Assembly: GCF_019635155.1 (NCBI RefSeq)
Contig: NZ_JAHBZY010000009.1
Location: 56,622 to 120,621 of the forward strand
DNA from: Nitrosomonas sp.
Lineage (GTDB): Bacteria > Pseudomonadota > Gammaproteobacteria > Burkholderiales > Nitrosomonadaceae
Reading direction: 5' to 3'
Length of the DNA: 64,000 nt
In this document: positions 38,451 to 54,936 of the stretch, piece after piece
Position numbering within the stretch: the first letter of the stretch is position 1
Layout of the letters: every line of letters starts with the position of its first letter
The notes under the pieces: model-generated
The model's database searches: none
Seen by the model: the letters and a program-made list of their open reading frames with translations, nothing else
Told to the model about the DNA's origin: nothing
Made by a program: the position numbers and the translations under genes

Positions 38451-38467
38451 TGCGACAAATTGTCGCA
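38451..38467. promoter_or_regulatory. Palindromic operator-like site 1
   Basis: TGCGACAAATTGTCGCA is a perfect eight-base inverted repeat around one central A. A near-identical site lies 86 bases downstream. It lies 84 bases upstream of the leftward gene start and about 255 bases upstream of the rightward one. Perfect paired dyads at this spacing suggest binding sites for a dimeric regulator. The regulator is unknown. Confidence 0.7.
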
Positions 38468-38536: not shown

Positions 38537-38553
38537 TGCGACAATTTGTCGCA
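38537..38553. promoter_or_regulatory. Palindromic operator-like site 2
   Basis: TGCGACAATTTGTCGCA repeats site 1 with only the central base changed. Its start is 86 bases from the start of site 1, about eight turns of the helix, so both sites could lie on the same face of the DNA. It lies 171 bases before the first gene of the secreted-protein cluster. Confidence 0.7.
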
Positions 38554-38723: not shown

Positions 38724-39467
38724 ATGAAGAAAATCAAACAGCTCAATTTATTTTCTCACAGTGCTCTGGCAATTGCCGCTTTTGCGGGCACAACGCAGTT
38801 CGCTATGGCGCATACGCGGCTGGAAACCGCAACTGTTGCGGAAAATACCCGCATAACCAATAACGTCATCATCAGTCATGGTTGCGGTGAAGAGAACGTG
38901 ATTGGTACGAGCGTAGTATTTCCTGATGGCGTGGATTCCACTATTCTGGTAGATGGAAATCCGCATACGGGTTCTTTGACGGATTTTGTGCAGAATTGGG
39001 GAAATCTGATGCAGCAGAACTTTAGTACAGCGGTTTTTAGTTCTCAGGATGAAAAAACCGATTCGTTGGGTAATGTGGTCGGTTTTTGGGCGGGTGGCGG
39101 TAATTCATTGCCGCATACTTTGAATGGTTATATTCCATTCCGAGCCGGTGCTGTTGTTATAGAACCGACTTCCTGCGCGAAAAGCGTCAAGTTTTATATT
39201 TCGATTGCGGATATTTGCGAAATCACTGATACCGCAGGATTCAGTGAAGCGACGGTTAATTTATGGACCCATAATAACCTGGGCACCGCATACGATCGCG
39301 TAAGTACGACCGACGACGGTCCTGCGTCATACATCGTTACCCGTACCAGTGCATTACCGACATCTTGCGGTGCAACAGGGGTGGAGGTGGAAGTAAAACC
39401 TTCGGCTGCGCAAATAAACCGCGATATGCCGATCAAATTTAACGGCACGCAAGTATGGCCTAAATAA
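38724..39467 (+). CDS. Secreted protein with predicted N-terminal histidine, paralogue A1
   Basis: This 247-residue protein has a Sec signal peptide ending in QFAMA, so the mature chain would start HTRLETATV. Further conserved positions are the HGC in NVIISHGCGEEN, a second His in NPHTGSLTDFVQNWGN, two Cys pairs (SCAKSV, DICEITD, LPTSCG) and a WPK end. It shares about half its residues with the next protein (39564-40349), including FPDG-DS, GFW-GGG, VIEP-SCAK and VKPSAAQ-NRD. An N-terminal His plus internal His can form a copper histidine brace, as in CopC or lytic monooxygenases. The HGC followed by FPDG pattern recalls YcnI/DUF1775 proteins faintly. I infer a periplasmic copper-binding role with no firm family. 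Confidence 0.75.
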   Translation: MKKIKQLNLFSHSALAIAAFAGTTQFAMAHTRLETATVAENTRITNNVIISHGCGEENVIGTSVVFPDGVDSTILVDGNPHTGSLTDFVQNWGNLMQQNFSTAVFSSQDEKTDSLGNVVGFWAGGGNSLPHTLNGYIPFRAGAVVIEPTSCAKSVKFYISIADICEITDTAGFSEATVNLWTHNNLGTAYDRVSTTDDGPASYIVTRTSALPTSCGATGVEVEVKPSAAQINRDMPIKFNGTQVWPK

Positions 39468-39486
39468 TCGACAAGTTCGTTTGGCA

Positions 39487-39527
39487 AAACCTCACCCATC
39501 CCTCCTGTTTTGTTCCGGGTGAGGTTT
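39487..39527. terminator. Stem-loop between paralogues A1 and A2
   Basis: AAACCTCACCC (39487-39497) pairs perfectly with GGGTGAGGTTT (39517-39527) around a 19-base loop, followed by CATTTACTG. It lies 19 bases after the stop of A1 and 37 bases before the start of A2. It may be a terminator or a partial attenuator that sets the ratio of the two products, since the genes otherwise look like one operon. Confidence 0.65.
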
Positions 39528-39563
39528 CATTTACTGAGTTGTGTGTCGAATAGGAGTTTTTAA

Positions 39564-40349
39564 ATGTTTAAATTGGCTGTCTTGAATTACCGCACTTTTG
39601 CTTTAGCAGGGATTCTAGGGCTGGTGGTTGTTTGGCAATCCGCTCATGCGCATACGCGTCTGAAAACACCGGTAATTCAGGAGAACGCAGCAAACCATGG
39701 CAGCAACTATAATGATGTCGTAATTGCACATGGTTGTCAGAATACTACCGATGGTGCTTCAACCATAAGTACGCTGGGTACGGTGGTAGTGTTTCCGGAT
39801 GGCAAGGATTCCATAATAACCACTGGTACCGTTAGCGGTACTGCGCATACCGGCACCTTATCGGATTTTGTTACCAACTGGGGTAATCCCGTGACGATTA
39901 TTCAAGATGGCAGTATTTTTTCTCATCAAGAATACATTCAAGATTCGCTTGGCAACAAACTGGGTTTTTGGTCGGGTGGCGGTAGTAAATTGAAAGCCGG
40001 TTATCGAGGACTCATTCCTTTTACTACTGCAGGCGTGGTGATTGAACCAGCTTCTTGCGCCAAGAACGTGACCTTTATTGTTTCGATCGTGGATGTTTGT
40101 GAAATTACTGATTCGAACGGATTCAGCAATGAGACGGTGCAAATGTGGACGCCTGCGGTTGGCTCCATATATGATGGTGAAGGGTTGCATGGCTATGATT
40201 CACCAGCGACGCTGACAATTGCTCGCTCGATTGCACCGTTGCCTTCTTCATGTGGTGAAGGCGTGGATGTGTTTGTAAAACCTTCAGCCGCTCAACTGAA
40301 TCGCGATTTGCGAATCATATTGGATGGTGCGCAGTTGTGGCCGAAATAA
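39564..40349 (+). CDS. Secreted protein with predicted N-terminal histidine, paralogue A2
   Basis: This 261-residue protein is a paralogue of A1. Its signal peptide ends VVWQSAHA, giving a mature start HTRLKTPVI. It keeps the HGC motif (VIAHGCQNT), the AHTGTLSDFVTNWGN segment, the cysteines (SCAKNV, VCEITD, SSCGEG) and the WPK terminus. The pairing of two copies suggests division of labour, for example binding different partners or metals, or a heteromer. It has GGAG (GAATAGGAG) about ten bases before its ATG. Confidence 0.75.
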   Translation: MFKLAVLNYRTFALAGILGLVVVWQSAHAHTRLKTPVIQENAANHGSNYNDVVIAHGCQNTTDGASTISTLGTVVVFPDGKDSIITTGTVSGTAHTGTLSDFVTNWGNPVTIIQDGSIFSHQEYIQDSLGNKLGFWSGGGSKLKAGYRGLIPFTTAGVVIEPASCAKNVTFIVSIVDVCEITDSNGFSNETVQMWTPAVGSIYDGEGLHGYDSPATLTIARSIAPLPSSCGEGVDVFVKPSAAQLNRDLRIILDGAQLWPK

Positions 40350-40525
40350 GTAAGCATCTATGTTTTGACGTGGTGAAGGCGACGGATTCATCTGTATTTT
40401 ATGCGGGTGGGTCCGATTGCCTTTTTAGTTGAATGATCAATCAGATAAATTATGGAATGAACTTTGTTCTCTGTTTTATGGCAGTAACATTATAATTGTC
40501 GCGTTATTACGCAAGGATTCTTATC

Positions 40526-40984
40526 ATGTTTCATATTTCCTTAAAGAAAACACTCGTGTGTATGGTCTCGACGATGATGCTTGGCTATGCCGGTTTAGGC
40601 AGTGCGCATGATGCCGGTGCGACGATGGATCCGAGCGGCACAGTGGCGGCTTTTACCGGTTATGCGCTGGTGACTTGTTTTGACGATGGTAACGGCCCGG
40701 CAGATTATCTGGTCGCAAGTGTTAGAGATTTATCTTCGCCAGAAGATAAGTTGCTGGTTAATTTACAGATTATCAAAGGCAACCGGGCAATCAATACAAC
40801 CGACCCGGTTTCGGGTGATGCGGATTATAGCCCTGAAGTTAAAGTTCATGGCGGCAATGGTGTTTACTTGTTGCTGGTTAACAAAACAAAAGCCGGAGTA
40901 CGATCATTCGCTGTTTCTTATCATTGCATGACAGCGAGTAATGCCCACACCGGTACGGATATAACCGTTCAGCAGTTTGAGTAA
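40526..40984 (+). CDS. Small secreted protein with predicted N-terminal histidine, paralogue B1
   Basis: This 152-residue protein has a signal peptide ending AGLGSA, so the mature chain would begin HDAGATMDPSG. It contains a Cys pair (LVTCFDDG, SYHCMTAS), histidines in KVHGGNGVY and ASNAHTGTD, and a compact beta-rich composition. I choose the ATG at 40526, with AAGGA about nine bases upstream, over an ATG ten codons earlier. It is about 75% identical to the next protein. It is unrelated in sequence to A1/A2, yet has the same N-terminal His feature. I do not recognise a family. Confidence 0.72.
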   Translation: MFHISLKKTLVCMVSTMMLGYAGLGSAHDAGATMDPSGTVAAFTGYALVTCFDDGNGPADYLVASVRDLSSPEDKLLVNLQIIKGNRAINTTDPVSGDADYSPEVKVHGGNGVYLLLVNKTKAGVRSFAVSYHCMTASNAHTGTDITVQQFE

Positions 40985-41001
40985 TAATGACAGGATTCCG
41001 G

Positions 41002-41463
41002 ATGATGCCTTGCGTTTCTAAAATGAAAACCATAAAGCTTGCCGCATTAATGGTGTTGCTTGGTTGTGTCAATTTAAGCAAAGCGCATGAAGCCGGCACT
41101 GTCATGGATTCCGGCGGCACGGTGGCGGGTTTTACCGGTTACGCCTTGGTCACTTGCTATGATAACGGCAATGGTCCGGCGGATCACCTGCTCGCAAGTG
41201 TTAGAGATTTATCGAAGCCGCAAGATGGATTGCTGGTCAATTTACAGGTCATTAAAGGCAATCGGGCGATCAGTACAACCGATGCGGTTTCAGGTGACGC
41301 GAGTTACAGCCCCGAAGTTAAAATTCATGGTGGGAATGGATCCTATTTGTTACTGGTAAACAAAACAAAAGCAGGTGCGCGATCGTTCGCCGTTTCTTAT
41401 CACTGTATAACGGCAAGCGATACCCACACCGGAACGGATATAGCCGTTCAGCAATTTGAATAA
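41002..41463 (+). CDS. Small secreted protein with predicted N-terminal histidine, paralogue B2
   Basis: This paralogue of B1 has a mature start HEAGTVMDSGG after a signal ending NLSKA. It keeps the Cys pair (LVTCYDNG, SYHCITAS) and the histidines KIHGGNGSY and ASDTHTGTD. The signal peptide contains LLGC, a weak lipobox, so a lipoprotein form cannot be excluded. The start ATG 41002 has AGGA six bases upstream. The high identity of B1 and B2 suggests a recent tandem duplication. Confidence 0.72.
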   Translation: MMPCVSKMKTIKLAALMVLLGCVNLSKAHEAGTVMDSGGTVAGFTGYALVTCYDNGNGPADHLLASVRDLSKPQDGLLVNLQVIKGNRAISTTDAVSGDASYSPEVKIHGGNGSYLLLVNKTKAGARSFAVSYHCITASDTHTGTDIAVQQFE

Positions 41464-41526
41464 GGATGCATGGATTGTGAGTCTGAGTCTGAATAATGCA
41501 ACAAACTGGATAATAGGACTGAACAA

Positions 41527-42030
41527 ATGAAAAAAATAAGATTATTGGGAATGGCGGCCTTATTGTTTCTAGGCAGCACTAGTTTGCTCGCTGAGCACCT
41601 CGAACGTATCTCTTCCGCATGCGATCTGACGACGCTTGATGGCAAACCGGCGCTGGAACTGCAGGATCTGAGAGGGAAAGTGGTTTATATGGATTTCTGG
41701 GCATCGTGGTGCCCTCCCTGTGTGAAGTCTTTTGCATTCTTAAATCAACTGGAACAGGAAATGGGGGAGCAAGGTGTACATGTTATTGGTGTTAACCTCG
41801 ATGAAAAAGTGAAGGATGCGCAGGAATTTCTTACGAAACACCCGGCGAATTTCTCGATTGTTGCCGATCCGAGTAAAGAATGCGCCAAGGCTCTTGAAGT
41901 GATGGCAATGCCTACTTCTTACATCATTGACAAGAAAGGGAATATTCGCCATGTGCACCAAGGTTTCCGTCCGGGAGAAACGGAGGAATTGCGGGCTCTG
42001 GTAACTCAATTGGTGGACGAACGCCCATAG
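41527..42030 (+). CDS. TlpA/ResA-like thioredoxin-fold protein
   Basis: This 167-residue protein has a signal sequence (LLGMAALLFLGSTSLLA) and a thioredoxin domain with the active-site FWASWCPPCVKSF (near 57-69). GVNLDEKVKDAQEFL and the cis-Pro stretch MAMPTSYIIDKKGNIRHVH follow. Such periplasmic proteins reduce disulfides, or keep metal-binding cysteines reduced. The neighbours contain conserved cysteine pairs (A1, A2, B1, B2) and a Cys-rich lipoprotein, so they are the likely substrates. Confidence 0.85.
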   Translation: MKKIRLLGMAALLFLGSTSLLAEHLERISSACDLTTLDGKPALELQDLRGKVVYMDFWASWCPPCVKSFAFLNQLEQEMGEQGVHVIGVNLDEKVKDAQEFLTKHPANFSIVADPSKECAKALEVMAMPTSYIIDKKGNIRHVHQGFRPGETEELRALVTQLVDERP

Positions 42031-42032
42031 GA

Positions 42033-42281
42033 ATGGTAATGATTCCCTTCATTAGAACATTCTTTTTTCGAAAGACTGCATTGATGTTTCTGATATTTGG
42101 GGTTACATTAACCGGCTGTGTTCATGTGGCGCCCTGGGAACGCGGTAATCTCGCAAAATCTCAAATGGAAATTGATCCATTTCCACTCCAAAGCGAAATA
42201 CAAGCTCACAATTACAGTAGCCGCGAAGCAGCGCCAAGCCATAAATCTTCTTCCGGTGGCGGCGGTTGTGGTTGCTATTAA
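42033..42281 (+). CDS. DUF4266 small lipoprotein
   Basis: This 82-residue protein has a lipoprotein signal (FGVTLTGC, lipid site C29), then VHVAPWERGNLAKSQMEIDP, SREAAPSHKSSS and a GGGGCGCY end. This is the DUF4266 layout. The C-terminal CGC could hold a metal or a covalent cofactor. The family occurs with TlpA-like, DUF3570 and ApbE genes, exactly as here, so a shared pathway is supported by context. Confidence 0.85.
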   Translation: MVMIPFIRTFFFRKTALMFLIFGVTLTGCVHVAPWERGNLAKSQMEIDPFPLQSEIQAHNYSSREAAPSHKSSSGGGGCGCY

Positions 42282-42290
42282 GTAAGCTGA

Positions 42291-45047
42291 GTGCTGGTTG
42301 CGGTTGATTTAAAGGTAACAAATTTGCAGCGGAAAAGAAGACTCAAAAAACATAATTACCAGCATCAACCTGATTATCCTGATTTACCATCCGTTAAGCC
42401 GCGCAATTCCACTCTACAGGCTTTAACATCTGCAGCATTGGTATTACCGGGCTTGTTGATGTCGTCCGGGCATGCAGCTGGACCGGATCGGATTAATTTT
42501 CAATATAGCCGCTATCAGGAAGGCGAGCGCAATCTATACGGTGTTCCACAAAGCTTAAAACCGATTACCGCCGATGTTTTGCATGGTAGCGGTATTTTTT
42601 CGATAACAGACCGTACCCGATTTACTTTCAGCTATACCCAAGATACCTGGTCTGGCGCAACGCCGGTGACGACCGCGCCTTTAGCTGCCAATAGTAATAA
42701 TCCAGTTTCTCGAAATACTGATTCTGGATCGGTGATTGTCGGGGCTTCTCCTTTTATTAACAGTAAATTTCTACTGCTGGATCATGATTTGAATCCGATC
42801 GGGAAAGACCCCATTACCAGGGAATCCACCGGTGCAATCGATACCCGGTCGGTGCTGGTAATGTCTTCCGCATCTCCGGAAACACGCAATCAGGCCAATT
42901 TTGGTTTGAGTCGTGAATGGAATGAAGCAACTTTCAATATCGGTGGCGGCTTTTCCAGTGAACGGGACTATCAATCGACATTCGGCAATATCGGCGGTCG
43001 AGTGGATTTTAATCAGAAGCTGACAAGCCTGAAGTATGGTGCGGGTTATACTGACAGCCAGATCGGCGCGATTCTGGATCATGATGCTTCGCCATATATT
43101 ACCAAAAATGCTTTTGCCGGGCATATTGAGGAGCGCGGCGGCTCGGAGATTCTGAAAGGCAAGCGTCATGATTGGGTTGGTAACTTGGGTATCACGCAGG
43201 TACTGAACAAAAATGCTTTGCTGGATGCGAATTTTAGCTATACCCATAGTAGCGGATATTTGGAAAACCCCTACAAAGTGATGACGGTTATCTTTGTCGA
43301 TCCTGCTGAATTGAATAATAACCGGAACACTCTCATTACTGGAGACGTGCGCGCACTTTTGGAGCAGCGCCCAGACAGTCGCAATCAGTTCGCATTCAAT
43401 GCTAAATATATACAATATATCAATGCCCTAAATGCAGCATTGCATTTAGGGTACCGGGTGTCAGCAGATGACTGGGGTATCAACACCCACACCTTTGATG
43501 CGAGTTGGGTGCAACCGCTTGGTGGCGGCTGGATGTTGACCCCTCGGATTCGTTATTATTCGCAGGATTCCGCGAGTTTTTATCGACCTTATTTATTTTC
43601 CATGCAAAGTTATTCAAAGCAGGAAATCGATAGTTTGGGGCGGCAAATTTGGTTTAATGAGAAAAACCCCACTATTCAGTATTTCGGTTCCGATCAATTT
43701 AATCTGGTTGACCAGAATGGCAATCCTGTTGACCCCTTTTCTGCGAATCCGGTCCCCAAAACGATTGCGTATGATGCCGGGAAGCTGCCTGAAAATTTCT
43801 CCAGCGACCACCGGCTGGCTGGTTTTGGCGCATTGAGCGGTGGTGTTACGCTGAGTAAGCTGATTGGCAGGGGCATCGCGTTGGAAGCGGGGTTCGAATA
43901 CTACACGCGTGCCAGTTCGATGCAAATCGGCGGCGGCAATAGCAGCTTTGCCGACTTTGATTATTATGTGGCCAACGCTGCGTTGAAGTTCGATATGGAA
44001 CCAAGTAATCCGCCGCTTGCAGGCGGTCGATCATCGCACCATCATGATTCATCCTCGCATCATCATAAGCTTCCGCCGGCCGGTATCATGTTCGGCCACA
44101 TGCTCGACAAACCCGGTGATTTTATGGCGGGTTACCGATATATGCACAATTGGACGAACGGCAGCATGATGCATGGCGACCACCAAATAAGCGATCAAAC
44201 GATTGTTGCACAAGGATGCAGCGATGCGGCACCATGCCGTTTCACGCCTACCTTCATGAATATGAGCATGCATATGCTCGATCTTATGTATGCGCCGACG
44301 AAGTGGCTGAATGTCATGTTAATGCCGACGTTTATGACCATGGACATGAATCTGCGTGAATTGACCGGTCGTCCGTCATCCACTACAGAAACGCATGAAC
44401 ATAGTGGCATCGCAGGCCACGAAACGGGCGCGGTCGGCGATACCTATCTATCGTCTCTGGTGAGGTTGCTCGATATCCCCGGACATCGCATGCATATCAA
44501 TCTTGGTTTGAGTGCGCCGACTGGCAAAGTGGATATCAAGTTACGGCGAGTGTTTAGAATCGACGGCGGTTTGATCCATTTCGGCATGCAGCAAGGCAGC
44601 GGTACTTGGGATTTTATGCCAAGCCTGACGTATGCCGGCGAGTACAACCGCTGGTCTTGGGGCGCGCAATTTGGAGGCATCAAGCGTTTGGAGAGTCAGA
44701 ACAAATCCGGCTACCGGCTGGGCGATACCATACAAGCGACATCATGGGTCGGTTTCGATATCAATCGCTGGCTGACTGCTTCGGTACGAGGTGCGTATAC
44801 TTGGCAAGACGCCATTCACCGGGATTTCAATCAATTCAATGCGCGCATCGGCCCCATGGATTTTCCATCCAATTATGGCGGTCAATTTTGGGATGTCGGA
44901 TTTGGTTTAAACGCAGCCGTTCCGCGCGGGCGGTTTGCAGGCAATCGCCTCGGTTTCGAATGGATACAACCGGTAAGTAACGACTTTAATGGATTTCAAT
45001 TGGATCGCAAGGGCGCATTGGCAGCAACCTGGAGTTATCAGTTTTAA
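42291..45047 (+). CDS. Outer-membrane double beta-barrel: DUF3570 fused to Met/His-rich barrel
   Basis: This 918-residue protein ends in an aromatic residue (ATWSYQF), as outer-membrane barrels do. Residues about 45-590 are DUF3570-like, starting LQALTSAALVLPGLLMSSG then IFSITDRTRFTFSYTQDTWSG. Residues about 600-918 form a second barrel of a type usually encoded separately: MLDKPGDFMAGYRYMHNW, MSMHMLDLMYAPTKWLNV, LMPTFMTMDMNL, INLGLSAPTGKVD. The linker is a histidine run (SSHHHDSSSHHHK). The many Met and His residues recall CopB/PcoB copper barrels. The start is uncertain: GTG 42291 is used here, but a later TTG at 42324 is possible. I infer a copper-related outer-membrane channel or anchor. 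Confidence 0.82.
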   Translation: MLVAVDLKVTNLQRKRRLKKHNYQHQPDYPDLPSVKPRNSTLQALTSAALVLPGLLMSSGHAAGPDRINFQYSRYQEGERNLYGVPQSLKPITADVLHGSGIFSITDRTRFTFSYTQDTWSGATPVTTAPLAANSNNPVSRNTDSGSVIVGASPFINSKFLLLDHDLNPIGKDPITRESTGAIDTRSVLVMSSASPETRNQANFGLSREWNEATFNIGGGFSSERDYQSTFGNIGGRVDFNQKLTSLKYGAGYTDSQIGAILDHDASPYITKNAFAGHIEERGGSEILKGKRHDWVGNLGITQVLNKNALLDANFSYTHSSGYLENPYKVMTVIFVDPAELNNNRNTLITGDVRALLEQRPDSRNQFAFNAKYIQYINALNAALHLGYRVSADDWGINTHTFDASWVQPLGGGWMLTPRIRYYSQDSASFYRPYLFSMQSYSKQEIDSLGRQIWFNEKNPTIQYFGSDQFNLVDQNGNPVDPFSANPVPKTIAYDAGKLPENFSSDHRLAGFGALSGGVTLSKLIGRGIALEAGFEYYTRASSMQIGGGNSSFADFDYYVANAALKFDMEPSNPPLAGGRSSHHHDSSSHHHKLPPAGIMFGHMLDKPGDFMAGYRYMHNWTNGSMMHGDHQISDQTIVAQGCSDAAPCRFTPTFMNMSMHMLDLMYAPTKWLNVMLMPTFMTMDMNLRELTGRPSSTTETHEHSGIAGHETGAVGDTYLSSLVRLLDIPGHRMHINLGLSAPTGKVDIKLRRVFRIDGGLIHFGMQQGSGTWDFMPSLTYAGEYNRWSWGAQFGGIKRLESQNKSGYRLGDTIQATSWVGFDINRWLTASVRGAYTWQDAIHRDFNQFNARIGPMDFPSNYGGQFWDVGFGLNAAVPRGRFAGNRLGFEWIQPVSNDFNGFQLDRKGALAATWSYQF

Positions 45048-45089
45048 GTTAGGATAGGGGGGAGCATTGAGCTTCGAAACCGGAATTGC

Positions 45090-45995
45090 ATGGCGCGCCT
45101 AAATTTCTTTCATTATGATTTTAATGCGATGGGATCGCCGTGCTCGATTCAGCTATATGCGCGTAATGATAAATCAGCGCAACGCGCCGCCAAAATTGCG
45201 ATGGATGATGTCTCCCGCCTGGAAGCGAAATATTCCCGGTACCGGGAAGATAGCTTGATATCTTCAATTAATCGTATTGCGGCTGATGGTGGGCAGCTTC
45301 CGGTCGACGATGAAACGGCCGGTTTACTGGATTATGCATCTACCTGTTATCAGCAAAGCGATGGCTTGTTTGATATCACATCCGGTATTCTGCGGCGCGC
45401 TTGGAATTTTAAATCCGGTAAAATACCGGAATCTAAAGCTATTCAGGCGCTGCTCAGCAAGGTTGGCTGGGATAAAATTGCTTGGCTACGGCCTGTTTTA
45501 TCATTTAACACTGCCGGAATGGAAATCGATTTTGGCGGTGTCGTGAAAGAATATGCAGTCGATCGCGCGGCATCACTTTGTTATGAAACTGGCATTCGCC
45601 ACGGTATTGTGAATCTTGGCGGCGATATCAAAGTGATCGGTCCGCATGTTGATGGCACACCCTGGCGTGTTGCCATTCGACATCCGCGTATCCCTGGCAG
45701 TATTTTGCAGACGCTGTTGTTGCATTCCGGCGCACTGGCAAGCAGCGGTGATTATGAGCGGTGTATCACACTCGATGGTATCCGTTATGGTCATGTGCTC
45801 AATCCTAAAACCGGCTGGCCGGTACGTTATATGGCGGCAGTGAGCGTTATTGGAGAGTTTTGCGTGGTTGCCGGTAGTGCATCGACAATCGGCATGCTGA
45901 AAGAAGAAGACGGGCCTGCTTGGTTAAGGTCGCTGGGTTTGCCGCATTTATGGGTGAATGTATCGGGAGAATCGGGCGGAACTTTGATGAAATAA
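45090..45995 (+). CDS. apbE: FAD:protein FMN transferase
   Basis: This 301-residue protein attaches FMN to a Thr or Ser of partner proteins. Typical regions are FNAMGSPCSIQLYAR (near 11), SRYREDSLISSINR (near 50), EIDFGGVVKEYAVDRAASL (near 147-165), GIVNLGGDIKVIG (near 176) and LASSGDYERC with GHVLNPKTGWPV near 230-250. No signal peptide is obvious, while most ApbE proteins are exported lipoproteins; the short N-terminus may be incomplete. Its place at the end of the DUF4266/DUF3570 cluster is the usual one, so an FMN-modified partner is likely. Confidence 0.9.
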   Translation: MARLNFFHYDFNAMGSPCSIQLYARNDKSAQRAAKIAMDDVSRLEAKYSRYREDSLISSINRIAADGGQLPVDDETAGLLDYASTCYQQSDGLFDITSGILRRAWNFKSGKIPESKAIQALLSKVGWDKIAWLRPVLSFNTAGMEIDFGGVVKEYAVDRAASLCYETGIRHGIVNLGGDIKVIGPHVDGTPWRVAIRHPRIPGSILQTLLLHSGALASSGDYERCITLDGIRYGHVLNPKTGWPVRYMAAVSVIGEFCVVAGSASTIGMLKEEDGPAWLRSLGLPHLWVNVSGESGGTLMK

Positions 45996-46095: not shown

Positions 46096-46743
46096 TCAAC
46101 GTTCTTCCGAGACCCAACGGGTTGCATAACGGATTAAGTCCGCACCGTCTTTTAAGTTTAATTTAATTCGTATGTTAAAACGGTGTGTTTCAATGGTTTT
46201 AATGCTACGGCAGAGTAATTTTGCAATTTCCTGACTGCTGTGTCCTTGTCCGATTAAGTGAAGCACTTCAAATTCGCTGGGAGTCAGCGAATTGATCAAT
46301 TGCTCGGGTTCCGAACCTCCGGATGCAATTTTCTTTAACAATTTCTCCTGCATGTTTTTGCTTAAGTAAATGTTCCCTTTAAGAACTTCACGGATTGCAG
46401 CGAGCAATGTTTCACCCGGCTCTTGTTTCATCACATAACCGCGAGCGCCGGCACGTAATGCGCGTTCCGCATATACCGATTCATCGTGCATCGACACAAA
46501 AAGTACAGGAAGTGTCGGAATCAAGGCGTGCATGCTTTTTATCACTTCGAAACCAGAAACGGTCGTAAGGGTGACATCTAATAAAACGATATCCGCTGAT
46601 CCGGTTTTTTTGAGGATGCGAAGTGCTTCATCGCCATCACCTGCCTCGGCAAATACTTCAAGATCCGGTTCCATATTGATCATCATGGCCATGCCATGCC
46701 GGAGCATGGCATGATCATCGACTAGCATTATTCTTGCTTTCAT
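46096..46743 (-). CDS. LuxR/NarL-family response regulator
   Basis: This 215-residue protein has a receiver domain (MLVDDHAMLRHGMAMM, with the phospho-acceptor Asp in DIVLLDVTLTTVSGFE near 54-69, and the switch Lys in VMKQEPGETL near 108) and a C-terminal LuxR-type helix-turn-helix (SLTPSEFEVLHLIGQGHSSQ near 148, KTIETHRFNIRIKLNLKDG near 187). It is encoded 13 bases after the sensor kinase on the same strand, and is its partner. The pair is convergent with the metal-associated cluster, so it may control it; this is not shown by sequence. Confidence 0.93.
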   Translation of the reverse strand: MKARIMLVDDHAMLRHGMAMMINMEPDLEVFAEAGDGDEALRILKKTGSADIVLLDVTLTTVSGFEVIKSMHALIPTLPVLFVSMHDESVYAERALRAGARGYVMKQEPGETLLAAIREVLKGNIYLSKNMQEKLLKKIASGGSEPEQLINSLTPSEFEVLHLIGQGHSSQEIAKLLCRSIKTIETHRFNIRIKLNLKDGADLIRYATRWVSEER

Positions 46744-46756
46744 AGGGTTGAGAGAT

Positions 46757-49204
46757 TTATCCTATTTGCATTTCAATACGAACTTCCGTGCCGCCTTCGG
46801 CGCGAGAGAGGAAGTCCAACTTGGCGCCTAGCTGTCTTGCGCGATACTGCATGATTTTTATTCCCATTCCTGATGTTGTGATTGTATCGGGCGTCAGATT
46901 CGCTACAGGGAAACCGCTACCGTCATCTGCAATTGATAACTTTAGTATGCCGCCGTCAAGCGTTAATGATATTTCAATATGCTGCGCTTTTCCATGACGA
47001 ATTGCATTATTGGTTGCTTCTTGTGCAATCCGATAAAGATTGAGCGCTACAATTTCGTCGCTAACGTTTGGATCATTTCTGCTTGAGAAATCGCATACGA
47101 TGTTATAAGTCGTTGAAATCCGATTCGCAAGTTTTTGCAGCGCGGATATCAAGCCATTGGTTTCTAATTCAAATGGAAGTAATCCTTGTGCAAGCTGTTT
47201 GATTTGAATGACTGAGATCTGTGCTTGTGAAGCAATTGCAGCAGCAATTTCCGCCATATTCGAATTTCCAATGGTTGCAATCTGTTTTTCTAAGGCTCTT
47301 GCTTGATAACTGATTGCGGCAATTTGCTGACCGAGGTTGTCATGCAATTCCTGCCCGATTGTATGCGACTGTTCTTCCGCAATGAGTACGATCGCTTGTT
47401 CCAGCCGTTTGCGTTCAAGCCAACTTTCCAGATCACTTGCGACTGCATTGACGAGTTTTTGCTCCTCCAGCATGAGGAATGGTTTATCGTTAGGATAGTA
47501 TACACGCAATTGGCCGCGTACTTTGCCATTGACAGTGATTGAAGACCAGCATGTACAAGCGGGATCCCGCTCTGCGCGCCAGGAATGCTGCTTTCTGCTG
47601 ACAATTTTGGTTTTAGATGGAAATTGCCGATTTATTACCTGATCAAAATTCCCAGAGGGAAAACGCCAGCCATCCAATTCGATTACGGCATTTGCTATTT
47701 CCGGGAATTGCATCGCCGGTATTAGATGCTCAAAAATATTATGGCATACGCTATCAATCGAAGATTCCATACCGATGCCTCGCCGAATTTCATAAAGGCA
47801 AGTGATTTCTTTCAGGCGTTCACGCAATAGCTCATCAACTTGTTTGCGTTCCAGCCATCTGGAAAGATCATTGGTAATGGAATCGATCAGTTTTTGTTCT
47901 TCCTGATGGAAAAATGGCTTGTCGTTTGAAGATAAAACAGTTAACTGACCGCATACTTTGCCAATGACCCAAATTTTCGATTCTAATCCATGCGTAAAGT
48001 TTTGAGTTTGAGCATGGGAAACAATACGTTTGCCATTTAGCTCGATTATGATAGCAGTCTGTTCCGGGTACTGCATGGCTGGAATCAGATGCTCAATAAT
48101 CTGCTGACACACCTTTTCCTCCGACAAATCCAGTGTGAAACCACGCCGTATCTCATAAAGACATGTAATTTCCTTTAGGCGCTCGCGAAGTTCTATTTCT
48201 TTTTGGCTGAGTTCAAGGGAAATTTGTTCGGCAATTTCTTTGGCACCACGTGCTTCGCGTTCCGATTTGATCAATTTTTGCACAAACCAGTTTAATAGCA
48301 GAATTTCAGCGATAATCAGTCCGGCAAGATAAAGGATAATGACTCTAAGTTGTTCATTGATCGGTCTGAACAATTCATCTTCATCCAGCTTTAGGATGAT
48401 GCCAAGACCGATCTGACGCAATGGCGCGTATGCCTCAATGACCGGCACGTTGCGATAGTCTCTGACCGCAATCACACCACTTTCGCCATTGAGCGCAAAG
48501 CTGATCGGCAAAGTGCCAACTTCAGTAATACGCATTAGATGCGCGAATTTCACGCCATCAATCTGACTGATCAAGCAAGCCATTTCATGATCACCTGATG
48601 CCGGAGGGGCGCATAGGATGAATTCACTGGTTTTGCCAATCGATCTTATTTCGCTGAATCTGCGGGTTAGTTGCGGCAATTTTATTTCGGTTGTGATCGA
48701 GCCGATTCGTTGTTTGTCTTGATCAAAAACATCCATCGTGGTGCGTAAAATAAACTGCTTATCCCAGATGATGTAGGTGTCTTGAAATTTATTGAGAGGA
48801 ATGGATTGTGCTTGCCGGTCTGAAAAGCGACCGACTTTCGACAGCACGTTGCCTCGCTGATCATGAACAACTGCAGCTGTAAAACCAGCCTCTGGTAAAG
48901 AATGAACATTACGCTCCAAATCCTGCAAAGCGCTGCTGTTTATTGATTGCGCATTAAGTTGTTGTATCGACTGGATTAGAAAAGGACGAAGTGTCAATGT
49001 GTGGGTATTCTCAAGTCCTTTTTGGATTTGACTTTCAATCAATAGTGCTTTGCCTTGCAAAGCCACACTCAATCCTCGGCCAAGCACGGATTCAATTTGC
49101 TGCCGCATGGCGCTATACACTGCGATACCAGTTGTGAGTGTAAGACCTAGTAATAATAATCCGCCAATAATACTGATCTTGCGGTTGTCGCGAATAAAAA
49201 GCAA
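46757..49204 (-). CDS. Sensor histidine kinase with two tandem GAF-like domains
   Basis: This 815-residue membrane kinase has a first membrane segment at about 12-32 (IIGGLLLLGLTLTTGIAVYS), an extracytoplasmic sensor region (33-290) of Cache type with PNAYA-like motifs (APLRQIGLGIILKLDEDEL), and a second segment at about 292-315. Two GAF-like domains follow (about 340-460 and 465-595), each beginning LRERLKEITCLYEIRRG, evidence of internal duplication. The transmitter is of HisKA_3 type with the phospho-His in IGQELHDNLGQQIAAI (near 640), then the ATP domain (NAIRHGKAQHIEI, DDGSGFP). It is NarX-like in layout and pairs with the LuxR-type regulator downstream. Confidence 0.9.
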   Translation of the reverse strand: MLFIRDNRKISIIGGLLLLGLTLTTGIAVYSAMRQQIESVLGRGLSVALQGKALLIESQIQKGLENTHTLTLRPFLIQSIQQLNAQSINSSALQDLERNVHSLPEAGFTAAVVHDQRGNVLSKVGRFSDRQAQSIPLNKFQDTYIIWDKQFILRTTMDVFDQDKQRIGSITTEIKLPQLTRRFSEIRSIGKTSEFILCAPPASGDHEMACLISQIDGVKFAHLMRITEVGTLPISFALNGESGVIAVRDYRNVPVIEAYAPLRQIGLGIILKLDEDELFRPINEQLRVIILYLAGLIIAEILLLNWFVQKLIKSEREARGAKEIAEQISLELSQKEIELRERLKEITCLYEIRRGFTLDLSEEKVCQQIIEHLIPAMQYPEQTAIIIELNGKRIVSHAQTQNFTHGLESKIWVIGKVCGQLTVLSSNDKPFFHQEEQKLIDSITNDLSRWLERKQVDELLRERLKEITCLYEIRRGIGMESSIDSVCHNIFEHLIPAMQFPEIANAVIELDGWRFPSGNFDQVINRQFPSKTKIVSRKQHSWRAERDPACTCWSSITVNGKVRGQLRVYYPNDKPFLMLEEQKLVNAVASDLESWLERKRLEQAIVLIAEEQSHTIGQELHDNLGQQIAAISYQARALEKQIATIGNSNMAEIAAAIASQAQISVIQIKQLAQGLLPFELETNGLISALQKLANRISTTYNIVCDFSSRNDPNVSDEIVALNLYRIAQEATNNAIRHGKAQHIEISLTLDGGILKLSIADDGSGFPVANLTPDTITTSGMGIKIMQYRARQLGAKLDFLSRAEGGTEVRIEMQIG

Positions 49205-49361: not shown

Positions 49362-49988
49362 ATGATAAAAATCATGTTGCAAGGGATTAACCTCGCTTGC
49401 GTTCGCGGGGACCGTGAGTTGTTTAGAGATATTAATTTTTCTGTCGAAGCAGGTTGCTTAATGCAAGTGAGCGGTCCTAATGGCAGTGGAAAAACCAGTC
49501 TGCTCCGAATGTTGTGTGGTTTATCTAATCCTGCTGCAGGTGAGATTCGTTGGTGTAATACACCGGTTCGTTCGCTCGAAGGAGAATATTTTTCTGATAT
49601 GACCTATATCGGCCATTTAAGCGGTACAAAAGATGATCTTACTGTTAGTGAGAATTTACGCATATCGAGTGCGTTGGCCGGTGTTGAGATAAGCTTTTCG
49701 CAAGCGGCTGAGGCACTTGCTTTTATTGGATTGGGCGGTAGGGATAATTTACCGGTAAAAGTTTTGTCGCAAGGTCAGCGTCGTCGTGTGGCGTTGGCGC
49801 GCTTGCTCGTTTGTAAAACTACATTATGGATTTTGGACGAACCTCTGGTTGCATTGGATGTGGCTGCCGTTCAGTTGATAAAGGAGGTGCTGGAGCGGCA
49901 TTTGCAGCAGAATGGCATTGTGGTGATGACGACACATCAGGAAATCGATATCACGGCTTCTTCAAAAATGCAGTTGCATCTTGCTTGA
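49362..49988 (+). CDS. ccmA: Haem exporter ATPase CcmA
   Basis: This 208-residue ABC ATPase has Walker A VSGPNGSGKTSLLRML (near 37), the signature KVLSQGQRRRVALARLL (near 130) and Walker B LWILDEPLVALDV (near 152). With CcmB, CcmC and CcmD it forms the complex that releases haem-loaded CcmE for c-type cytochrome assembly. An alternative ATG lies four codons on (49374); no good ribosome site separates them. It overlaps the start of ccmB by eight bases. Confidence 0.94.
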   Translation: MIKIMLQGINLACVRGDRELFRDINFSVEAGCLMQVSGPNGSGKTSLLRMLCGLSNPAAGEIRWCNTPVRSLEGEYFSDMTYIGHLSGTKDDLTVSENLRISSALAGVEISFSQAAEALAFIGLGGRDNLPVKVLSQGQRRRVALARLLVCKTTLWILDEPLVALDVAAVQLIKEVLERHLQQNGIVVMTTHQEIDITASSKMQLHLA

Positions 49989-50655
49989 TAAATATATGTT
50001 TATATGGATTATTAAGCGCGATTTGTTATTGGCTGTACGCCGGCAATCTGATGTGCTGATCACACTTTTTTTCTTTATTATTGTAGTCAGCTTATTTCCG
50101 CTAAGTGTCGGACCGGAGATGAATTTGCTTCGAACAATGGCGCCCGGAGTAGTGTGGGTAGCAGCTTTGTTAGCATCCATGCTGTCGCTCGGTAGAATGT
50201 TTTCTAATGATTATTTGGATGGAACGTTGGAGCAGATGCTGTTATCGCCGCAATCATTATCGATTCTTGTTCTTGGTAAAGCATTTGCGCACTGGATAGT
50301 GTCGGGTGTTCCACTCGTGTTGATGGCGCCCGTTCTAGGTATTCAATATGATTTGCCGTTTGACGCATTACTTGTGTTAACAGGCGCATTATTGCTGGGG
50401 ACACCCGTGTTGAGTTTGATAGGAGCCATAGGTGCCGCCCTGACACTTGGATTGAGAGGCGGGGGTGTATTGGTATCTCTCTTAGTGTTGCCACTATACA
50501 TCCCAATCCTGATTTTTGGAGCAGGCGCGGTTGAAGCAAATATGGCCGGTATTGCATTTGATGCGCATTTGTCACTGATTGGCGCATTTCTGCTGGCTTC
50601 ACTTGTTTTTGCACCATGGGCGGCGGCTGCGTCGCTACGAGTTTCTTTAGAATAA
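49981..50655 (+). CDS. ccmB: Haem exporter membrane protein CcmB
   Basis: This 224-residue protein has six membrane segments and the family sequences IKRDLLLAVRRQSDVLITLFF (N-terminus), SLGRMFSNDYLDGTLEQMLL (near 72) and LPLYIPILIFGAGAVEA (near 170-186). It is the membrane half of the CcmAB transporter. A 223-base gap follows before ccmC, which may hold a second promoter. Confidence 0.94.
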   Translation: MLDKYMFIWIIKRDLLLAVRRQSDVLITLFFFIIVVSLFPLSVGPEMNLLRTMAPGVVWVAALLASMLSLGRMFSNDYLDGTLEQMLLSPQSLSILVLGKAFAHWIVSGVPLVLMAPVLGIQYDLPFDALLVLTGALLLGTPVLSLIGAIGAALTLGLRGGGVLVSLLVLPLYIPILIFGAGAVEANMAGIAFDAHLSLIGAFLLASLVFAPWAAAASLRVSLE

Positions 50656-50878
50656 GATGAAAAACGATGATGAACCATTGATTGGTTTATAAGAGCGCTA
50701 TTTAAAAAGCAGCATATTCTTTTTTGTCTGTTTTCTTCTAAAATATTCTATTTGTAAAGCGTGCAGATAAAGAAAGCAATTTTTGATTTTTACTTTTTGG
50801 TATAGAATGAGCCGCTGCAAAATTAGGGTAAGTTATAGATAGAATTAAAATTTATTATAAAGGTTGTTAATATATAAA

Positions 50879-51622
50879 ATGGCGATCAATTGGTTCAAAT
50901 ATTCGTCCCCTGCTAGTTTTTATACACTTGCAGGAAAAATGATCCCAATCTTTGTCATAGCTGCGGTGATTTTTTTGGTAGCGGGGCTTTATATCGGTTT
51001 CTTTGTGGCACCTACAGATTTTCAGCAAGGTGAAGCTTATCGGATTATTTTTATTCATGTGCCGGCTGCTTGGATGTCAATGTTTCTTTACGTGGTGATG
51101 GCTTTCTGGGCCGCAATAGGGTTGGCTTTTAATACAAGACTATCCTCCATGTTCGCAACCGCGATTGCACCGACTGGTGCTATGTTCACTTTTCTAGCAT
51201 TATGGACCGGCGCCCTGTGGGGCAAGCCCATGTGGGGTACGTGGTGGGTATGGGATGCACGGTTAACCTCGGAACTGATTTTATTTTTTTTGTATATTGG
51301 CTTTATGTCGTTACAGGCAGCGATTGATGATCCACGCCGGGCTGATAAAGCGGGGGCGATCATCGCAATTGTCGGCGTAGTTAATATTCCGATTATTTAT
51401 TTCTCGGTTCAATGGTGGAATACTCTGCATCAGGGAGCATCTGTAAGTATTAATCAAGCACCCGCAATGGCATCGACGATGTTGACGGGGATGCTTGTTA
51501 TGGTACTAGCAAGCTGGATGTACTCCATTGCAGTCATATTAAAAAGAGTGCGCGTTATTATCCTGGAAAGAGAGAGTCACTCAGCTTGGGTAACAGAATT
51601 ACAAAAGAAGGGGGCTGTTTAA
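50879..51622 (+). CDS. ccmC: Haem-handling protein CcmC
   Basis: This 247-residue membrane protein contains the tryptophan-rich haem-binding signature (GTWWVWDARLTSELILFFLY near 123), flanked by the histidines in FIHVPAAWMSMF and in WWNTLHQGASVS. It hands haem to CcmE. I start at ATG 50879, which gives the family N-terminus MAINWFKYSSP; an earlier in-frame TTG at 50864 would be less usual. Its stop overlaps the ccmD start (TAATG). Confidence 0.94.
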   Translation: MAINWFKYSSPASFYTLAGKMIPIFVIAAVIFLVAGLYIGFFVAPTDFQQGEAYRIIFIHVPAAWMSMFLYVVMAFWAAIGLAFNTRLSSMFATAIAPTGAMFTFLALWTGALWGKPMWGTWWVWDARLTSELILFFLYIGFMSLQAAIDDPRRADKAGAIIAIVGVVNIPIIYFSVQWWNTLHQGASVSINQAPAMASTMLTGMLVMVLASWMYSIAVILKRVRVIILERESHSAWVTELQKKGAV

Positions 51623-51792
51623 TGAACTGGTCGAGTTGGTCGGAGTTTTTCTCAATGGGGGGATATGGGCTCTATGTTTGGGGTTCGTATGCGGTGGTAT
51701 TTCTTTGTATCGTTGCTGAAGTTTTGTTAATTTCAAATCGACGTAGAACTTTGGAAAAACAATACGGTCACATTCACGACTTGAATAAATAG
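51622..51792 (+). CDS. ccmD: Haem exporter small subunit CcmD
   Basis: This 56-residue protein has one membrane segment (GGYGLYVWGSYAVVFLCIVAEV, trimmed here: GGYGLYVWGSYAVVFLCI) and a basic tail SNRRRTLEKQ. The sequence and length are those of CcmD, which stabilises the CcmABC-CcmE complex. The start codon overlaps the stop of ccmC by one base, which indicates translational coupling. Confidence 0.9.
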   Translation: MNWSSWSEFFSMGGYGLYVWGSYAVVFLCIVAEVLLISNRRRTLEKQYGHIHDLNK

Positions 51793-51801
51793 AGACTAAA
51801 A

Positions 51802-52251
51802 ATGAAACCCCGTCATAAAAAGCTTGTAATTATTGCCTCTAGCGTAACTGCGTTAGGAATTGCATCAGTCTTAGTATTGAATGCATTTCAAAGTAATCTG
51901 GTATTTTTCTTTAGTCCGACACAAGTTGTTGCTAAAGAGGCGCCCATAGGTAAAAGTTTCCGTATCGGCGGTCTTGTTGCGGATGGTAGTGTGAAGCGTG
52001 AAGATGGATCAACGACTGTACACTTTGCGATTACTGACACCGCAGAAACAATCCCGGTTGTCTATACTGGCATTTTGCCCGATTTGTTTAAGGAAGGTAA
52101 GGGTGTTGTCGCGCAAGGAAAAATATCGAACCAAGGTGTATTTCTCGCTGATGAGGTTCTCGCTAAACATGATGAGAACTACATGCCGCCTGAGGCTGCT
52201 GAAGCTTTAGAGAAAGCAGCAAAAGCACAAAAAGCATCTCTCATACAATAG
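51802..52251 (+). CDS. ccmE: Cytochrome c haem chaperone CcmE
   Basis: This 149-residue protein has an N-terminal membrane anchor ([19 protein letters not shown]) and an OB-fold domain ([37 protein letters not shown]). The covalent haem ligand histidine and nearby Tyr lie in [13 protein letters not shown] (near 119-131). It carries haem from CcmC to CcmF/H. It starts ten bases after ccmD. Confidence 0.95.
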
Positions 52252-52324
52252 TTTTTCAAGGTAGATTATTACCTCTGGGAATTTCTTTTTTAAATCCTGA
52301 AAAATTTTCAATTGGTACAACATC

Positions 52325-54379
52325 ATGATTCCAGAAATAGGTAACTTTTCATTAATTCTCGCTCTTTTATTAGCCATCATACAGGGAACACTCCCCATAA
52401 TTGGTGCGGCAAGAGGTATTCCCTCCTGGATTGCTCTCGCGAGACCGGTAGTGCAAGGCCAATTTGTATTCGTTCTGATAGCGTTCTTTTGCTTGGCTTA
52501 TTCATTTGTTACCAGCGACTTTTCAGTATTGAATGTGGCAAAGAATTCGAATACGGAGTTGCCTCTTCATTTTCGAATAGCGGCTACCTGGGGGTCGCAT
52601 GAAGGTTCCTTGTTGTTATGGGTGTTAATGTTAGCTAGTTGGTCTGTTGCGGTCAGTATTTTTAGTAAACAACTACCGGATGATGTTGTCGCACGTGTGC
52701 TTGGCGTGTTGGGGCTTGTTGCGATTGGTTTTTATGTGTTCATGTTATTTACCTCAAATCCGTTTGATCGTTTATTGCCTGCAGCGTTTGAAGGAAGTGA
52801 TTTGAATCCTCTGTTGCAGGACGTAGGTATGGTTGTTCATCCACCGATGCTTTATATGGGCTATGTTGGTTTCTCAATTGCATTTGCATTTGCTATCGCG
52901 GCTTTATTAAGCGGGAAGTTGGATGCGGCTTGGGCTCGATGGTCTCGGCCTTGGACGATTGTAGCCTGGGTATTTTTGACATTTGGCATAATGCTCGGAA
53001 GCTGGTGGGCTTATTATGAGCTAGGCTGGGGTGGTTGGTGGTTCTGGGATCCGGTTGAAAATGCATCGTTCATGCCATGGTTGGTTGGGACTGCTTTGGT
53101 TCATTCATTAGCCGTTACAGAAAAACGGGGCAGTTTTAAGAGTTGGACGGTATTATTAGCTATTAGCGCATTTGCGCTAAGCTTATTGGGCACCTTTTTG
53201 GTGCGTTCGGGTGTTTTGACTTCTGTACACGCATTTGCAACCGATCCAGCACGAGGTATTTTTATCCTTGTTTTCCTAGTCGTTGTTATCAGTTGCTCAT
53301 TGATACTGTTTGCTTGGCGTGCGCCTAAAGTCGGACTGGGTGGTAAATTTGACTTGCTTTCTCGAGAATCCATGCTGTTGACGAATAATATTTTATTATT
53401 AGTTGCGGCTGCCAGTGTGTTGTTGGGAACATTGTATCCACTAATTATTGACGCACTTGGATTGGGCAAGCTATCAGTAGGCCCTCCTTATTTTGAAGCA
53501 GTTTTTGTTCCTGTTATGACGCCGGCAATCTTCCTTATTGGTGTAGGCCCTATATCACGATGGAAACAAATGAGTTTGCCGGCATTGGCTGTGCGTTTAC
53601 GTTGGGCATTTGCGGTGAGTGTCGTTTCTGCACTGATAGCGCCCTATTTTATGGGTGAATGGAAACCGATGATCAGTTTCGGTTTATTGTTAGCGTTTTG
53701 GATCATTGTTTGCATATTTGTAAGTATCAAGCATCGCGTGAGTTCTAGCGGTGAAGGTAATTTCATTTCCAAATTATTAAAACAATCAAGAAGTTATTAT
53801 GGCATGCATCTGGCGCATTTAGGTGTGGCTGTATTTATTATCGGTGTGACATTAGTCAATGGTTATGAAACTGAAAAAGATGTGCGCATGGAGATTGGAA
53901 GTAAGGTAACAGTCGGAGGTTATACTTTTCAATTTAATGGTACCAGTGATGTCATAGGTCCAAACTATAAGGCCGTACGTGGAGACATCGCTGTTATCAA
54001 AGACGATCAATTTGTTCGTAATCTGTATCCAGAAAAACGTACTTATAATGCATCGGGTATGGCCATGACAGAGGCGGCCATTGACACTGGATTATTCCGC
54101 GATCTTTATGTCGCTTTAGGCGAACCGCTTGCAAATGGTGCTTGGGTTGTTCGTGCCTATCACAAACCATTTGTTGATTGGATATGGCTGGGATGTATCT
54201 TAATGGCAATCGGTGGAATCACTTCAATTACAGATCGACGTTATCGTCTGAAGATAACTAAAAAGAATCAGTTAACCACCAAAGACGAAGAAATTGAACG
54301 GCTACCTGAAGAAGCTCCTGTTGTTATTGCACCTGCGACTAATAAAGCTGAGTTAGCAACGGAGTCAAGTAAAATATGA
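52325..54379 (+). CDS. ccmF: Cytochrome c haem lyase subunit CcmF
   Basis: This 684-residue protein has many membrane segments and the WWD-type signature GGWWFWDPVENASFMPWL (near 238), with conserved His in AATWGSHEGSLLLWVL (near 89), LVHPPMLYMGY-like VVHPPMLYMGYVG and DPARG. It attaches haem to apocytochrome. Its last codons overlap ccmG by four bases. The tail beyond the final membrane segment is Glu/Lys-rich and unconserved. Confidence 0.95.
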   Translation: MIPEIGNFSLILALLLAIIQGTLPIIGAARGIPSWIALARPVVQGQFVFVLIAFFCLAYSFVTSDFSVLNVAKNSNTELPLHFRIAATWGSHEGSLLLWVLMLASWSVAVSIFSKQLPDDVVARVLGVLGLVAIGFYVFMLFTSNPFDRLLPAAFEGSDLNPLLQDVGMVVHPPMLYMGYVGFSIAFAFAIAALLSGKLDAAWARWSRPWTIVAWVFLTFGIMLGSWWAYYELGWGGWWFWDPVENASFMPWLVGTALVHSLAVTEKRGSFKSWTVLLAISAFALSLLGTFLVRSGVLTSVHAFATDPARGIFILVFLVVVISCSLILFAWRAPKVGLGGKFDLLSRESMLLTNNILLLVAAASVLLGTLYPLIIDALGLGKLSVGPPYFEAVFVPVMTPAIFLIGVGPISRWKQMSLPALAVRLRWAFAVSVVSALIAPYFMGEWKPMISFGLLLAFWIIVCIFVSIKHRVSSSGEGNFISKLLKQSRSYYGMHLAHLGVAVFIIGVTLVNGYETEKDVRMEIGSKVTVGGYTFQFNGTSDVIGPNYKAVRGDIAVIKDDQFVRNLYPEKRTYNASGMAMTEAAIDTGLFRDLYVALGEPLANGAWVVRAYHKPFVDWIWLGCILMAIGGITSITDRRYRLKITKKNQLTTKDEEIERLPEEAPVVIAPATNKAELATESSKI

Positions 54380-54906: not shown

Positions 54907-54936
54907 ATTATTTGAGAGAAAGGGTGCTGTTTTACT

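Follow-up and report, generated by a model that had tools for sequence, protein, structure and literature searches.

A Nitrosomonas operon of histidine-first secreted proteins: a possible link between copper handling and flavin/thiol electron transfer

Why would an ammonia-oxidising bacterium place genes for four secreted proteins, each with a histidine close behind its export signal, directly ahead of a set of redox genes? This question is raised by a 64,000-nucleotide stretch of Nitrosomonas sp. (contig NZ_JAHBZY010000009.1, positions 56,622 to 120,621; hereafter the window), part of a genome of 49 contigs and 3.09 Mb. As an earlier note on this DNA had it, eight plus-strand open reading frames lie at 38724-45995 in the order A1, A2, B1, B2, a TlpA-like thioredoxin, DUF4266, a DUF3570 fusion and ApbE (Table 1). 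The reading we favour, with a probability of about one half, is that this operon would handle copper outside the cytoplasm, couple that handling to flavin/thiol electron transfer and be controlled by a RegB/RegA-type (RegBA) regulator. Copper enters this reading because A resembles the copper protein YcnI and because of the genomic context.

The earlier note had argued that four histidine starts were unlikely to be a coincidence. A and B proteins were read from the loci that had been fetched, which represent a selection from all matches, and clustered below 85% identity, which left 66 of 165 A and 49 of 111 B proteins; signal peptides were called with a crude home-made rule. The aligned column after the export signal is histidine in 61 of the 66 A proteins, and the five others comprise two truncated frames and three members of a divergent subfamily that, judged by eye, have their own histidine after the signal (starts HMYTQ, HLFTN and HMFTN). 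Two family A alignments were trimmed to start at this residue, so that His1 is present in them by construction, and one omits 8 of the 66. The corresponding B column holds histidine in 44 of 49 proteins and aspartate in 5. Under the crude rule, histidine stands at +1 of the best cleavage site in 84/97 A and 24/69 B proteins, compared with 12/329 other proteins of Nitrosomonas loci, and at +1 of any acceptable site in 95/97, 58/69 and 29/329, respectively; the low best-site count for B means that the rule favours another site in most of them. The histidine-first start exceeds chance in both families. Its weight comes from this conservation rather than from the count of four, since A1/A2 and B1/B2 are two paralogue pairs and their starts amount to roughly two independent events. 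In B2 of the window, an LLG-Cys that fits the usual lipobox pattern lies seven residues ahead of the histidine, and this protein may be a lipoprotein whose N-terminus is a lipidated cysteine rather than histidine. A second B copy in another genome (G042, locus L003) has no lipobox-like cysteine.

The earlier note also proposed a metal site built on the N-terminal histidine, and both families conserve candidates for further ligands: a second histidine in 66/66 A proteins (mature residue 23 in A1, 27 in A2) and His106 with His114 in 49/49 B proteins. Invariant in the same 66 A proteins are a cysteine two residues after the second histidine, three further cysteines and two tryptophans. An AlphaFold2 model of mature A1, built from 27 sequences, reached a predicted local distance difference test (pLDDT) of 92.1 and a predicted template modelling score (pTM) of 0.89. 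When it was compared by Foldseek with 350,542 PDB chains, YcnI chains took ranks 1-5 (E 4.5e-5 to 1.7e-4) with template modelling (TM) scores of 0.67-0.74 by target length; the best E value belonged to 7me6 (4.5e-5), copper-bound 7mek scored 0.74, and 3esm at rank 7 is presumably another DUF1775 protein. A search of PDB sequences with A returned nothing credible (best E 0.087).

A profile of A gave one weak match among 349 genomes of the order, at the N-terminus of a DUF1775-like protein (locus L127, E 0.0078), a value at chance level over that many genomes, so the match was used as a lead only. Together with nine proteins found with PF07987 in 9 of 150 genomes of the same order, it formed a comparison set of ten, with which A aligned in hhalign at E 3.7e-5 over columns 1-54, placing His1, His23 and Cys25 in register; Trp152 (A1 numbering), invariant in 66/66 A proteins, lies outside the aligned region. 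The control comparisons gave E 0.33 for A with B and 0.44 for B with DUF1775, and homology was rejected for both pairs, for the former as the earlier note had maintained. With numbering as in A1, mature residues 23-25 read HGC or HAC in all ten DUF1775 proteins. The available part of PMC8424229 describes Bacillus subtilis YcnI, a monohistidine-brace protein, as binding Cu(II) through its N-terminal His27 and Glu50 (mature residue 24), beside Trp137, and notes that mostly proteobacterial DUF1775 proteins without the glutamate retain the histidine and tryptophan and might use a different ligand set. In A the glutamate at mature 24 is absent (His23-Gly24) and His23 of A1 adjoins its place; we infer that His23 may replace it as ligand in A and in the DUF1775 proteins of the same order.

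By its modelled fold and its profile, A is thus best described as a divergent, enlarged YcnI/DUF1775-like domain. It shares with YcnI the cupredoxin-like fold found by Foldseek and an export signal ending before histidine; with the same-order DUF1775 proteins the His1-His23-Cys25 placing, Cys25 and probably Cys136 corresponding to their two cysteines; and with some DUF1775 genes a promoter palindrome (below). It differs from YcnI in length (about 220 residues against chains of 127-129), in two extra cysteines, in having His23 where YcnI has Glu50 one residue on, and in not matching the Pfam model of DUF1775. Unlike YcnI/DUF1775, it is confined to one genus and has several paralogues in many genomes, and CopC, CopD and PCuAC are absent among the eight genes of the window operon. 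DUF1775 genes generally stand beside PCuAC in the accessible text of PMC8424229, and at four loci of one genus (L148, L150, L151 and L152, from four genomes) they adjoin genes that look PCuAC-like by eye.

Family B is less easily placed. The AlphaFold2 model of B1 (18 sequences, pLDDT 93.7) matches only general beta-sandwiches in the PDB, with a best E of 1.6e-3 to CBM61 and a TM score by query length of 0.60 to 9ues, so no fold family was assigned from these matches; a search of PDB sequences gave nothing credible (best E 0.33). Cys24, Asp41, Gly83, Gly85, Tyr87, His106, Cys107, His114 and Thr117 are invariant in 49/49 proteins, and B appears from its model to be a new beta-sandwich family with two further invariant histidines. 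The only match in 250 genomes of the order, in another family (genome G139, E 4e-8), is a distant B that by eye retains the N-terminal histidine, His106-Cys107 and His114. Flanked by two DUF4266-DUF3570 units, this B also has genes resembling TlpA and ApbE in its vicinity (by eye; ApbE by hidden Markov model). Beside it is a third, unrelated histidine-first protein (L167 8446-9066; YAHEPRVIGGDC, by eye) that belongs to no Pfam family.

The second half of the operon corresponds to a module already known. In the available part of PMC8238504 (Meheust et al. 2021), ApbE flavinylates a DUF3570 protein, and thioredoxin, DUF4266, DUF3570 and ApbE genes cluster with or without DsbD, in agreement with the earlier note's statement that these genes occur together. 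Pfam recognises the four window proteins as Redoxin/AhpC-TSA (E 4e-26), DUF4266 (2.6e-18), DUF3570 (1.4e-109, residues 43-559 only) and ApbE (4.6e-72); A1, A2, B1 and B2 gave chance-level matches only against Pfam and NCBIfam. Common to the published cluster and the operon are four genes in order, a CxC end of DUF4266 (39 of 43 unique members have CxC close to their end) and the motif [S/T]GA[S/T]. The accessible text of that paper gives two such motifs, whereas the window protein has one; at least one occurs in 28 of 31 unique Nitrosomonas fusions, and two in 3 of these. The operon also differs in having the A and B genes upstream, in lacking DsbD among its eight genes and in fusing DUF3570 to a barrel-like part rich in methionine and histidine (5.8% and 5.0% of residues 560-918, against 1.0% and 2.0% of residues 60-559).

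The 31 unique Nitrosomonas fusions longer than 800 residues span 854-935, and DUF3570 frames genome-wide in the genus are mostly of 824-950 residues, the shorter ones reading as broken or cut copies. In a survey of the phylum, 30 regions were fetched and DUF3570, at 377-465 residues, was recognised in 27; in 14 of these the whole module of four genes fell inside a run of seven genes. The barrel fusion recurs in G139, as two fused barrels. A general rule that DUF3570 clusters have histidine-first neighbours was ruled out, the crude signal-histidine calls being scattered over TlpA (five loci) and unrelated genes. By the same crude rule, ApbE near DUF3570 genes has a signal peptide in 0 of 28 unique Nitrosomonas proteins and 1 of 21 elsewhere (L167, L185-L209). 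Its substrate is nevertheless exported, and flavinylation of DUF3570 may precede this export.

A candidate for the control of the operon came from its upstream region. Among k-mers counted in 25 non-identical upstream regions, GACAATTTG occurred in 19, against a maximum of 4 for any 9-mer across 20 mononucleotide shuffles, and revealed the palindrome TGCGACA-N3-TGTCGCA. The window holds two exact copies; with up to two mismatches the chance expectation is 0.45 sites, and two were reached in 7 of 100 shuffles. The 3.09-Mb genome has three exact copies, two of them upstream of the operon, plus five with one mismatch, compared with none for a backward-pattern control, which rules out a dispersed repeat. 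At least one exact copy is found in 65 of 85 genomes of the genus (control site in 2), and a search of relatives for exact sites returned 29 loci, 13 of which have the site by an A or B gene. Allowing one mismatch, the palindrome lies within 400 bp upstream of 58/84 A, 9/57 B and 9/48 TlpA genes, of no DUF3570 (0/32), DUF4266 (0/23) or ApbE (0/27) gene, and of 43/690 other genes, among them genes that face away from A across a common promoter. Of ten DUF1775 genes, two from one genus have it exactly, a third with one mismatch and a fourth with two, at 129-156 bases ahead of the mature start in all four; the remaining six show 5-6 mismatches.

One of the one-mismatch sites in the window's own genome starts 90 bp upstream of a regBA-like pair; the NCBIfam models that match this pair best are ActS/PrrB/RegB (E 8.7e-84) and ActR/PrrA/RegA (1.1e-59), both below the curated cut-offs. 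The core GCGACAATTTGTCGC has no mismatch to the R. capsulatus RegA consensus, which 0.019% of random 15-mers fit, and one to that of RegR; against published consensus sequences, the operator sites have no mismatch to SSGNVRDNHYSNCSS and 1-2 to GNGRCRTTNNGNCGC. The operon thus resembles a RegB/RegA (PrrBA, ActSR) regulon in its fit to the R. capsulatus consensus and in the near-exact site before the organism's own regBA-like pair, but its sites are perfect palindromes, far less degenerate than published RegA sites. In At. ferrooxidans, RegA conforms to none of these published consensus sites, which calls for caution in assigning the operators. R. capsulatus RegA binds copper, as reported in the available part of PMC9147068; for the operon this is no more than suggestive. 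Elsewhere in the same genome, the third exact palindrome lies upstream of a gene whose product looks by eye like c7, which is found next to A in other genomes. Two further one-mismatch sites precede an amidohydrolase whose signal ends before histidine by the crude rule (L271 4720-6336) and a protein with a histidine start by eye only (L271 19518-20000), and the remaining two lie within or at the end of genes.

The genes keep close company within the genus. Of 125 genomes in the bacterial family, 78 contain A and 74 contain B, all of them among the 85 of the window's own genus; neither is found in the 40 genomes of the family's other three genera. Beyond the genus, A has no credible match in 349 genomes of the order and 279 of the phylum (overlapping sets); two matches were dismissed as chance, the DUF1775 N-terminus already mentioned (E 0.0078) and a stop-ridden frame (E 0.0083). 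Neither family matched on plasmids. In the 85 genomes, A and B are both present in 73, A alone in 5, B alone in 1 (at a contig end) and neither in 6. The search for A and B families alongside DUF3570 that the earlier note had suggested showed a close association: 73 genomes have B together with DUF3570 and 10 have neither, with one genome having B only and one DUF3570 only (Fisher p 4e-11, uncorrected for shared descent). In both discordant cases, G055 and G058, a contig end cuts the operon. With 15 instances near contig edges excluded, 37 of 45 B genes have TlpA no more than 3.5 kb away, 8 of the 37 being in a second locus type that has a BNR protein but lacks DUF3570; the remaining 8 of the 45 are near A without TlpA.

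In that second locus type (L074 6045-7244 and similar), a B protein starting HQL is accompanied by a divergent BNR/sialidase-like protein (c8) and TlpA. The BNR protein has 12 copies in the fetched loci, some being the same place fetched twice, and plasmid relatives at 25-28% identity among 15 listed of 60 records. Of two such plasmid records examined, one has the relative next to genes for CopC, CopD and a multicopper oxidase, the other next to a multicopper oxidase and mer genes. Such neighbours would suit a defence against copper or mercury stress, in which secreted A and B sequester Cu(II) while the redox module guards the envelope. We regard this as very unlikely: an efflux pump and a copper-sensing regulator are absent among the eight genes, and control of the RegA type points to redox or respiration.

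How far does the evidence bear the favoured reading, copper handling coupled to flavin/thiol electron transfer? The copper proposal of the earlier note gains for A, through the YcnI fold, the His1/His23/Cys25 placing and the palindrome shared with some DUF1775 genes; in B, the N-terminal histidine is not strictly kept (aspartate in 5/49). The evidence does not set acquisition apart from loading, storage, stress or iron handling. The aspartate in B is one of several that weigh against the reading. The match of A1 to YcnI is partial (TM 0.43-0.46 by query length, root-mean-square deviation 5.1-5.6, identity 10-11%), with an unrelated cohesin at rank 6 and more cohesins below rank 7. The hhalign alignment with DUF1775 is confined to the first 54 columns at a probability of 71%, and 0 of 58 A members matched PF07987 at E up to 1, for which reason we call A YcnI-like rather than a DUF1775 member. 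No A or B homologue was found in the 27 DUF3570 loci of the phylum, and 20 of the 85 genus genomes have no exact palindrome, several of them having the operon. Two further sets of neighbours count on the same side, those of A in other places and those of the barrel relatives, and each of them bears on a rival explanation.

A genes elsewhere adjoin FG-GAP-like (c7) and PEP-CTERM-like (c14) proteins, as judged by eye. Such company would be expected if A and B had structural or adhesive roles, their histidine starts being a relic, with TlpA and DUF4266 tending their disulfides as part of envelope thiol-redox or cytochrome-maturation support. The invariant cysteines of A and B fit this picture, as does a cluster at 49362-56783, about 3.4 kb from the operon, which by its sequence is ccm-like (ccmABC, F, G, H, I); a barrel relative in Ruegeria likewise adjoins ccm and DsbD genes. 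It nonetheless seems decidedly improbable, since conservation of His23 in 66/66 A proteins and of His106 and His114 in 49/49 B proteins is more than a structural role seems to need.

The neighbours of the barrel relatives are mixed: PCuAC stands beside one weak relative (E 2.4e-4), but cytochrome c maturation genes accompany another and, in Methylosinus, FeoB, PepSY_TM and TonB genes a third. In five Nitrosomonas genomes that lack both B and DUF3570 (loci L244, L245, L246, L247 and L259), moreover, the palindrome lies upstream of genes that by their sequence are FecI-sigma-, TonB- and PepSY-like, hinting at a possible wider metal-uptake regulon. These observations suit reductive iron acquisition, in which flavinylated DUF3570 and TlpA would reduce ferric iron at the surface while the part of A and B would be to bind a metal, be it iron or a different one, or else to protect the site. 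The 25 DUF3570 clusters tied to VIT1 iron transporters in the available part of PMC8238504 point the same way. On the other side, the fold of A is that of a copper protein, the palindrome also precedes some DUF1775 genes, the eight genes include neither an iron transporter nor a cytochrome, and no Fur-like box stood out upstream of the operon, where the best candidates agreed at 10-13 of 19 positions and formed no pattern. We consider iron acquisition unlikely.

Under the favoured reading of copper handling, A would bind Cu(II) in a histidine brace to which His1, the N-terminal amine and His23 contribute and close to which an invariant tryptophan lies, in the manner of YcnI with histidine in place of Glu50, and B would bind metal through His1, His106 and His114. 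ApbE would attach flavin mononucleotide (FMN) to the DUF3570 part of the outer-membrane barrel, and TlpA, the CxC of DUF4266 and FMN could then pass electrons to or from the copper sites of A and B or their disulfides. In this way the outer membrane would be the place where copper is reduced, set free and transported, and RegBA would switch the operon on according to the quinone or redox state. A more specific form of this proposal is RegBA-controlled reductive copper acquisition, in which A and B, both with bis-histidine braces, would capture Cu(II). A flavinylated double barrel in the outer membrane, supplied with electrons by the thioredoxin and the CxC lipoprotein, would then reduce the copper and bring it in, so that proteins would do the work of a chalkophore. 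We hold this version to be unlikely.

Table 1. Positions of the operon genes, their parts and the upstream palindromes in the window.
Feature	Position	Strand	Basis
Candidate RegA-type operator 1, palindrome TGCGACA-AAT-TGTCGCA	38451..38467	.	Exact match
Candidate RegA-type operator 2, palindrome TGCGACA-ATT-TGTCGCA	38537..38553	.	Exact match; core 15-mer 0 mismatches to R. capsulatus RegA consensus
A1, secreted YcnI/DUF1775-like protein; mature start His at 38811	38724..39467	+	
A2, A1 paralogue; mature start His at 39651	39564..40349	+	
B1, secreted beta-sandwich protein; mature start His at 40607; longest open reading frame from TTG 40496	40526..40984	+	
B2, B1 paralogue; His at 41086; likely start inner ATG 41023; lipobox-like LLG-Cys	40987..41463	+	
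TlpA/ResA-like thioredoxin, CPPC	41527..42030	+	Pfam
DUF4266 lipoprotein, end CGCY (CxC)	42033..42281	+	Pfam
DUF3570 (residues 43-559) fused to C-terminal Met/His-rich barrel-like part	42291..45047	+	Pfam
SGAT, candidate ApbE flavinylation motif [S/T]GA[S/T]	42651..42662	+	Motif from PMC8238504 (available part)
C-terminal barrel-like part of DUF3570 fusion	44001..45047	+	Met/His content
ApbE, FMN transferase, without recognisable signal peptide	45090..45995	+	Pfam

Directly downstream, on the opposite strand, lie genes for a NarL-type response regulator and a histidine kinase (46096-49204), which among the mapped loci occur there only in the nearest relatives.

The thioredoxin-DUF4266-DUF3570-ApbE module is itself not new, and the available main text of the histidine-first discovery paper (PMC12537917) does not mention Nitrosomonas. 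We found no description of the YcnI-like A, of B, of the barrel fusion or of the promoter palindrome in the open-licence literature, where unnamed families cannot be searched for by name. What is added here to the earlier note are the palindromes, the link to regBA and the relationship of A to YcnI. Ammonia monooxygenase needs copper. For the question of how ammonia-oxidising bacteria acquire and deliver it outside the cytoplasm, the operon offers small candidate proteins, with ligands predicted at His1 and His23 for A and at His1, His106 and His114 for B. His23 is proposed as the replacement for the glutamate missing from proteobacterial DUF1775 proteins, a question raised in the accessible text of PMC8424229. 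The operon also physically links what may be copper-type proteins to a flavin/thiol electron-transfer module, and it provides a candidate regulator.

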